Positions 9,568-31,834 of a DNA stretch of 64,000 nucleotides are shown here, one piece after another. Source of the stretch: Haloarcula halobia (lineage in GTDB: Archaea; Halobacteriota; Halobacteria; Halobacteriales; Haloarculaceae). A program made the translations under genes and the position numbers. Location: the NCBI RefSeq assembly GCF_029338255.1, contig NZ_CP119787.1, positions 2,294,001 to 2,358,000 on the forward strand. Direction: 5' to 3'. The notes under the pieces were generated by a model, which saw only the letters and a list, made by a program, of their open reading frames with translations, searched no databases and was not told the origin of the DNA. Each line of letters opens with the position of its first letter. Position 1 is the first letter of the stretch.

Positions 9568-9721
9568 TTGCGAGGGAAGACCGCTCCGTGCGAGTCTTCC
9601 AGCACTGTTTGCGAGGGACCGCGGTGGGCCCAACAGTGCGAGGGAAGGGATTTGAACCACGGAGAGACGGTCGCGACGTCGTCGCGCTGCGACTCTCCTG
9701 ATTCAAACCCTTCCGGGTGCA
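9568..9721 (-). repeat. tRNA-Leu(CAA)-derived palindromic and partial repeats
   Basis: Downstream of the tRNA, a 22-bp stretch at 9637-9658 repeats the tRNA 3' end (9754-9775) exactly. Opposite it, 9695-9721 is an imperfect inverted copy, so 9637-9721 folds on itself with an inner gcgac/gtcgc stem. Two shorter copies of the last ~9 bases of the tRNA (tgcgaggga) start at 9570 and 9610. They sit within hairpins ggaagac/gtcttcc (9574-9600) and gcactgtt/aacagtgc (9602-9639), both perfect. The 343-base gap between the 67-aa gene and the tRNA therefore holds mainly these repeats. Likely remains of tRNA-targeted integration or of a tRNA-derived palindromic element. Confidence 0.7.
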
Positions 9722-9753
9722 TCTTCCTCGGCGCGATAGTGCGCCTCGTGCGA

Positions 9754-9837
9754 TGCGAGGGAAGGGATTTGAACCCTTGGACCCCTACGGGAGCGGATCT
9801 TGAGTCCGCCGCCGTTTCCTGGCTTGGCTACCCTCGC
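9754..9837 (-). tRNA. tRNA-Leu(CAA)
   Basis: An 84-nt type II tRNA on the minus strand. Acceptor stem GCGAGGG pairs with CCCTCGC, discriminator A. The anticodon arm is GCGGA-CTCAAGA-TCCGC with anticodon CAA. A long variable arm (TCCCGTAGGGGTCC region) and TPsiC loop GGGTTCAAATCCC are visible. CCA is not encoded. Decodes UUG. A TATA-like stretch (minus ctttatacg) at about 9908-9916 lies some 70 nt upstream. No intron. Confidence 0.95.
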
Positions 9838-9974
9838 ACGCGTCTGTCAGCCAACCACCGTCCAGGGTCGGGCACCGTGATTGGTCCGGTAGAGACTCGC
9901 GCCGACTCGTATAAAGGTGCCACGGAAACGCGTTACCTGCCGATCGGTGTGACGCTCCCGGCGCTCGACGCAGT

Positions 9975-31304: not shown

Positions 31305-31388
31305 GCGCGGGTTGCCGAGCCAGGAAAAGGCGTAGCGCTTAGGACGCTATCCCGTAGGGGTCCGCCGGTTCAAATCCGGTCCCGCGCA
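31305..31388 (+). tRNA. tRNA-Leu(TAG)
   Basis: An 84-nt type II tRNA. Acceptor GCGCGGG pairs with CCCGCGC, discriminator A. Anticodon arm TAGCG-CTTAGGA-CGCTA with anticodon TAG, decoding CUA (and other CUN by wobble). The long variable arm CCCGTAGGGG and the T arm CCGGTTCAAATCCGG are visible. CCA is not encoded and there is no intron. Its last 23 bases are copied three more times downstream. Confidence 0.95.
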
Positions 31389-31702
31389 CTTCTCCGCGAA
31401 CCATATTGTGAGCGGAGAGTGCGCGGTCAGTTGGATTTGAGCCCCGGCAGACGCAGCGCGCGAGCGACCGTCTGCAGACGGTTCAAATCCGGTCCCGCGC
31501 ATACCGTCTCGAACAGACGTGAGAGACCTGTCTGCGCCAGCGGATTTGAAGCACGGAACGAGCGAACGCAGTGAGCGAAGTTCAGGCGGTTCAAATCCGG
31601 TCCCGCGCATGAGCGAGCGCAGTGAGCAAAGAGCAGGACCGATGTGAACCCTGGGAGACGAGCGAAGCGAGTCTTCATCCGGTTCAAATCCGGTCCCGCG
31701 CA
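31389..31702 (+). repeat. Three palindromic units ending in tRNA-Leu(TAG) 3'-end copies
   Basis: The last 23 bases of the tRNA (31366-31388) recur exactly at 31479-31501, 31587-31609 and 31680-31702. Each copy is preceded by a degenerate inverted copy (31420-31444, 31534-31556, 31634-31650 approximately), so each unit is a hairpin with tRNA-derived arms. Inner stems such as gcagacg/cgtctgc (31447-31475) add pairing in unit one. Loops hold haloarchaeal gagcgaacgcagtgagcg-type sequence. Unit one also has a leading hairpin tctccgc/gcggaga (31391-31418). Unit spacings are 113, 108 and 93 bases. The 446-base gap before the next gene is otherwise empty (31703-31834). Confidence 0.8.
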
Positions 31703-31834
31703 GTTCTCTACGAACGAACGGCACACAGAGTCGCTGCTCTCCCGGAGTTGCAGTGACCGTGTGGGGCCAGTCAGACACCGGGCGCTCGCGGGTCCGACCA
31801 TAGGGTTATCCCTCTCGAGAGGGTAACGTTACAG

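Follow-up and report, generated by a model that had tools for sequence, protein, structure and literature searches.

Hairpin arrays behind haloarchaeal tRNA genes: a repeated unit that copies the 3′ end of its own tRNA and might act as structured RNA

In a window of 64,000 nucleotides from Haloarcula halobia, by which we mean the whole stretch of DNA analysed here, the end of tRNA-Leu(TAG) recurs three times directly behind the gene, each time as the right arm of a hairpin. The observation is real and far wider than this single array. The hairpin units are best read as a structured RNA family that is absent from Rfam and that might be renewed by recombination with the tRNA gene. The array in the window could accordingly consist of three copies of a tRNA-linked structured repeat that may act as folded RNA in read-through transcripts, a reading that we prefer and hold tentatively, at somewhat less than even confidence.

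Results

Three hairpin units behind tRNA-Leu(TAG)

The tRNA-Leu(TAG) gene (31305–31388, plus strand; called by ARAGORN and as Rfam RF00005) ends with the discriminator base A at 31388, and nucleotides 52–73 in conventional tRNA numbering (R0) occupy 31367–31388. Three units follow on the same strand, each built from a first hairpin (H1), a left arm (L), a second hairpin (H2), and a right arm (R), in this order. Unit 1 comprises H1 (31389–31419), a motif that accompanies units, the left arm (31420–31443), recognised by fold and sequence comparison as an inverted copy of the tRNA end, H2 (31444–31479), and the right arm R1 (31480–31501), with a covariance-model match over the unit at genome positions 2325433–2325490 (E 2.8e-8). 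Unit 2 has H1 at 31502–31532, assigned from the sequence, the left arm at 31533–31552, assigned from an inverted-repeat match and the fold, H2 at 31553–31587 (model match, E 4.3e-5), and the right arm at 31588–31609. In unit 3, an H1 region assigned from the sequence (31610–31637) precedes a left arm of which the T-arm half was placed by fold and sequence (31638–31650), H2 (31651–31680; model match, E 9.1e-6), and the right arm (31681–31702). All three right arms are identical to tRNA nt 52–73 (22/22). Past the last right arm, positions 31703–31730 resemble by eye the beginning of another H1, as is also seen at several tRNAs of G183, a genome from another family.

The preliminary description of this locus had noted exact recurrence of the last 22–23 nt of the tRNA at a spacing of 93–113 bp, which the coordinates bear out: the start-to-start distances are 113, 108, and 93. 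The 22-mer occurs four times in the 3.48 Mb genome, always at this locus, and the reversed control does not occur. The palindrome with an inverted left arm, described at the same time, holds up in part. Each of the three units folds into a hairpin whose right arm is R, and nt 52–62 are well matched, whereas the match is weak in the acceptor half (nt 63–73). The fold z-scores of the single units are modest (−2.51, −1.58, and −4.24 for units 1–3), and the strong evidence for the unit hairpin is comparative. No integrase or recombinase domain was found in the eight open reading frames neighbouring the array, one of which has no domain at all. The antisense strand of the array (31347–31801, minus strand) itself reads as two open reading frames of 143 and 124 aa; unit arrays could give rise to spurious gene calls.

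A second tRNA gene in the window, tRNA-Leu(CAA) (9754–9838, minus strand; ARAGORN and Rfam calls), is followed by a single unit (9637–9753, minus strand; model match, E 2.4e-6), in which H1 (9720–9753), L (9700–9714), H2 (9659–9699), and R1 (9637–9658) can be delimited in the sequence. Its R1 matches its own tRNA at 22/22 and differs from the right arm of Leu(TAG). Across the host genome, 18 of the 44 tRNA genes have a copy of their own nt 52–73, counting copies of at least 18/22 within 500 nt of the tRNA. With the criterion relaxed a little (17/22 overall and 8/12 in nt 62–73, within 760 nt), copies were found at 24/41 tRNA genes of G183, where the first copy is perfect (22/22) in 15 of the 24 cases and arrays reach five copies. 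About half of the tRNA genes in these two genomes, both checked in full, have no units.

Right arms copy the tRNA that they follow

The right arm reproduces nt 52–73 of the preceding tRNA, from G52 through the discriminator base. The left arm is an inverted copy chiefly of the T-arm half and is good across units for nt 52–62 only. In 209 units that were identified solely through the T-arm motif, nt 62–73 of the right arm agree on average at 10.7 of 12 positions with the own tRNA and at 5.6 of 12 with other tRNAs; selection of the loci relied in part on the Leu(TAG) or H2 pattern, and related genomes contribute many of them, so that these counts are of non-independent events. A control using all 22 nt and the right arms of other tRNAs was discarded as too weak (19–29 of 217 genes per replicate, against 150/217 with their own) because the T-arm is common to tRNAs, and nt 62–73 were used instead.

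An H2-based pattern, blind to tRNA identity, gave 82 matches at no fewer than 80 loci in named genomes. Among the 82 matches listed, 65 follow a called tRNA at a distance of at most 800 nt, and their right arms, distributed over 24 isoacceptors, match that tRNA at 22/22 in 36 cases and at 20/22 or better in 53; the remaining 12 score lower, down to 12/22, some of them through a one-base shift. The other matches have an upstream copy and no called tRNA (10), neither of the two (3), or a position at the edge of the locus (2), and two lie in Pseudomonas and were judged by eye to be coding. Of the 146 genomes of the family, 72 contain the Leu(TAG) pattern with one free base. In 43 of them it is present two or more times, and in 40 of the 43 the copies are 91–171 bp apart (hand count); the 74 genomes with no match may differ in the tRNA sequence, lack the unit, or be incompletely assembled. 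The preliminary description had asked whether right arms would follow the 3′ end of each individual tRNA and whether the architecture would be kept in relatives, and both are indeed the case.

H1 goes together with the rest of the unit. It was found at 11/18 and 18/24 tRNAs with units and at 4/26 and 2/17 tRNAs lacking them in two genomes, and the notion that H1 is a general trailer hairpin of all tRNAs was therefore dropped.

Compensatory changes in the unit hairpin

Since RNAalifold gave a poor fold on the mixed alignment of 78 sequences, a structure was drawn up manually for 40 of them, chosen by type, a choice that favours the commonest H2 types. For these 40 L-H2-R sequences, 90.6% of the cells are paired compared with 81.3% after shuffling, with 86 double changes compared with 24.9 in the shuffles, and slid versions of the fold pair at most 43%. 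In an alignment of 141 model matches, itself fitted to that model and with some antisense or repeated matches among its rows, 91.9% of the cells are paired compared with 83.5%, with 263 double changes compared with 76.4. The unit hairpin thus shows compensatory change beyond the controls, as would be expected of a structured RNA family. In the 132 sense rows, G.U cells outnumber A.C cells by 107 to 35, and one U.U mismatch is retained in 98 of 128 rows. G.T is the best tolerated mismatch in DNA hairpins as well, and the wobble test thus favours RNA without proving it.

For the statistics on the arms, 30 of the 209 units, with 8/12 or less to their own tRNA, were excluded and seven duplicates removed, leaving 172. 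In 162 nonredundant units, the left arm follows the right arm at nt 57 (A-T in 94/102, G-C in 55/60), and it also does so at nt 59 (T-A in 10/10) and nt 60. The acceptor half of the left arm is weakly matched: the longest complement to nt 63–73 averages 4.10 nt for the own tRNA and 3.80 nt for others, the own tRNA being higher in 97 cases and lower in 65. We also considered, and abandoned, a one-base bulge common to all left arms and resembling the extrahelical base of attC sites (22 deleted, 27 not, 110 neither; n = 159).

Decay outward along the arrays

In 63 arrays with two or more copies, the first copy is nearer to the tRNA sequence than the last in 34, the reverse holds in one, and 28 are ties. 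Counting only copies above the detection threshold, the mismatch rate in nt 63–73 is 1.5% in inner copies and rises to 9.0% in the copy that ends an array of several, with 5.6% where a tRNA has a single copy. Tandem duplication of blocks is plain in G183 at Arg(CCT), where the duplicate is perfect, at Gly(TCC), where the duplicates alternate, and at Gly(CCC). Congeners differ in copy number and, by eye, in unit types at the same tRNA; at Leu(TAG) of related species, H1 and L are shared and H2 differs, also by eye. Two processes fit the array pattern: exchange with the tRNA and neighbouring copies, which would renew R, and insertion beside the tRNA. Recombination with the tRNA, already proposed from the first array in the form of gene conversion, agrees with near-perfect inner copies and a decayed outermost copy. 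Several units per tRNA locus were also seen at L143, L230, and L119, with alternating duplicate units at L230.

Distribution in haloarchaea

A covariance model built on L-H2-R, used at a threshold of E 1e-4 (its E-values are rough), found matches in 140 of 145 sampled genomes of the class and in 55 of 58 genera, with 1 to 31 matches per genome and none in five genomes. In a sample of the phylum, 38 of 196 genomes gave a match, all of them in the order of the window's own genome; the genomes of this sample listed as having no match include two of the same order and 18 from outside it, and a further 138 gave no match either. In four genomes from four families, 96 of 106 matches lie at most 800 nt downstream of a tRNA and on the same strand, where 0.4–0.8% would be expected by chance. 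The individual counts are 25/30 (G000, at E 0.01, with one match overlapping a tRNA), 22/23, 30/32, and 19/21 (at E 1e-4), and the matches serve 17/44, 18/42, 20/41, and 17/44 tRNA genes, respectively. Of the five orphans in G000, three are partial matches, one lies antisense beside tRNA-Ser(CGA), and the last is of neither kind. All six named genomes searched gave matches, including Haloferax denitrificans (10) and Haloferax gibbonsii (7); these genomes had been reached through loci that were fetched for carrying a unit. One unit was found on a contig labelled as the Bacteroidetes MAG QS_9_68_14 (L130), which is probably misbinned haloarchaeal sequence.

Integrase elements and displaced arrays

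In two genomes, G098 and G123, Leu(TAG) is intact and has a PF00589 integrase behind it with no adjoining unit, and a displaced Leu(TAG) end lies 28 kb (G098) and 68 kb (G123) away with the units still attached. The displaced piece of tRNA, which begins in the anticodon arm, measures 52 nt in G098 and is somewhat longer, with two differences, in G123; the units do not contain the anticodon-arm stretch present in these pieces. G183 shows a similar arrangement at tRNA-Thr(CGT) (2522500–2534450), where an insertion of apparently about 11 kb seems to have displaced the unit, an integrase lies beside the Thr unit, and the att block measures 28–29 nt, and at tRNA-Tyr (2066900–2085750), where an insertion of apparently about 18 kb seems to have done the same. 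The two orphan matches of G183 are found downstream of a tRNA with matching sequence, at distances of 11 and 18 kb. Integrase elements in the same tRNA genes thus appear to have pushed arrays aside, and the arrays probably predate the integration at G098, G123, and G183. Since the elements sit in the tRNA with the array displaced, they apparently use tRNAs without using, or being blocked by, the units; and since the displacement leaves an intact tRNA with no unit, the units look dispensable in cis.

These loci bear on two readings that invoke tyrosine recombinases. That the units are leftover att or landing sites would accord with tRNA 3′ ends being favoured att sites of archaeal tyrosine recombinases (excerpts of PMC8371274), and the array does share an exact block of 22–23 nt with the tRNA 3′ end; the Thr att block of 28–29 nt is not much longer than R, and an argument from block length alone was accordingly given up. 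However, the repeated ends in the window are 93–113 bp apart, with no element between them and no integrase domain in the eight neighbouring open reading frames, and in G098 and G123 the piece of tRNA left by the elements is about 52 nt long or longer, with PF00589 beside the intact tRNA and the arrays displaced. Direct duplication alone is also insufficient, as the inverted arm, which att duplication would not yield, covaries with R. The preliminary description had made this last point, which is strengthened by the conservation of the architecture in relatives; its suggestion of repeated landing sites, by contrast, runs against the finding that elements with integrases occupy the tRNA itself. 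We thus regard att leftovers as very improbable. Like the att sites in excerpts of PMC8371274, the units place a direct copy of the tRNA 3′ end downstream of the tRNA, and unlike them they recur at about 90–170 bp, start at nt 52, contain an inverted arm and a conserved hairpin, and have no integrase alongside here. The idea of decoy att sites that shield the tRNA against integration gains from exact copies adjoining the target, and yet in G098, G123, and G183 elements sit in the tRNA itself, with the arrays on the far side of the elements. The arrays probably stood there earlier, and we consider this proposal the least credible of all.

Discussion

The sense placement, the covariation, the tolerance of wobble pairs, and the retained U.U mismatch lead us to prefer a folded RNA. 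The units would be transcribed as 3′ extensions of the tRNA precursor, unequal exchange or conversion would renew R from the tRNA gene and from adjacent copies, and selection on the hairpin would make L follow R. In such a transcript, L could pair with the T-arm and acceptor strand of its own tRNA or with R1, and R1 would be a cis decoy that frees the tRNA for folding and processing. Predicted folds for the window's genome agree with this in part: when the transcript is cut after L, at least ten of the last 22 nt of the tRNA pair outside the tRNA in 12 of 17 cases, and when it runs through R1 the same invasion is seen in 4 of 17. However, the left arms of other tRNAs also invade in 47 of 102 predicted folds, so that the tRNA specificity of any switch appears weak. 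The full-length folds keep on average 0.8 of 7 acceptor pairs compared with 5.4 for the tRNA alone, which speaks against a clean switch, these being minimum-energy folds that ignore high salt, modification, and protein. We find it rather unlikely that the units form a class-wide set of tRNA-specific cis RNA switches, whose arrays would grow outward and in which the anti-T-arm strand competing with a decoy tail would set the folding of the precursor.

The most serious alternative to a folded RNA, which we still judge improbable, is that tiny cassettes insert at tRNA 3′ ends, either as attC-like single-strand hairpins or with a 22 bp target duplication of the Cas1 type, new units entering beside the tRNA and older ones shifting outward. 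Right arms that extend from the T-arm to the 3′ end with identical borders at many tRNA types would follow naturally, as would the decay of the outermost copy, the variation among congeners in copy number and unit types, and the L-H2-R imperfect hairpin with its conserved arm on one side. At one locus (L233, 443–4378, in G080), the right arm of a unit and a further R copy, itself preceded by a degraded tRNA half, flank a 3.9 kb methylase/restriction gene that encodes 1312 aa with Eco57I-type methylase domains. Against cassettes stand the eight open reading frames lacking a recombinase domain, the absence of an exact H2-pattern match in viral contigs and of a blastn match to the window array in plasmids, the block duplications within arrays, which resemble unequal exchange, and the agreement of L with the T-arm variants of its host tRNA, which suggests long residence at one tRNA. 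Units that serve as terminators or insulators, stopping read-through behind tRNA genes, with the tRNA identity a by-product of repeat duplication, would likewise lie downstream in sense, as 96 of the 106 matches do, and would keep the hairpin while the acceptor part of R decays in the outermost copies. We nevertheless think this unlikely, as no constant T-run was seen past R (by eye, uncounted) and a terminator would require neither that R equal the tRNA nor that L follow T-loop variants. Neutral tandem duplication of the tRNA end, homogenised by recombination and kept palindromic by template-switch repair, could explain the perfect and alternating duplicates in G183 and the decay of outermost copies with no function at all; the H2 motif and the compensatory pairs over 55 genera, however, exceed what drift should leave, and this seems to us more unlikely still.

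Several known systems invite comparison. In integron attC arrays, imperfect palindromes with one exact and one degenerate arm adjoin a fixed site; attC sites recombine as single-strand hairpins, and integrases of the Cas1 type duplicate their target. The units are alike in this arrangement; unlike integrons, the window array has no integron integrase among its eight neighbouring open reading frames and no gene cassettes, and the repeat changes from site to site with the tRNA that it copies. In CRISPR arrays, which grow from the leader side, the repeat copy at the far end is degenerate, a feature that the units share, whereas the repeat is here a tRNA end and the spacers, of about 70–156 nt, form one structured family, which sets the arrays apart from CRISPR. 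The t-elements of Haloferax, reportedly described by Hoelzle in 2012, are said to be tRNA-related structures outside tRNA genes that are linked to tRNase Z; the units, in which the T-arm is part of a long hairpin, are distinguished from t-elements by description only. PATEs and small mobile repeats of Haloquadratum are short transposable elements, PATEs being palindromic near their ends (excerpts of PMC3119063), and the units differ from PATEs as portrayed there in sitting after tRNA genes and copying the tRNA. In Rfam, only tRNA scored above the cut-off, the best other match having E 0.069 and 23.1 bits where 34.5 are needed, and no description of these units was found among the titles and abstract beginnings returned by searches of open-access PMC.

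If the units act as RNA, tRNA expression would gain a new layer, and this in archaea that are amenable to genetics. Should they be a cassette system, they would form an integron- or CRISPR-like array that is mostly free of cargo. Either way, a repeat is kept in step with an essential gene, which would make renewal by recombination measurable.

A second, GC-rich hairpin element, composed of a T5 run, a hairpin, and a complementary A run, was noticed by eye after Pro and Ser tRNAs; after Arg(CCG) of the host genome, this element is bounded by R copies too (L057, with L055, L072, and L054 as further loci of the element).
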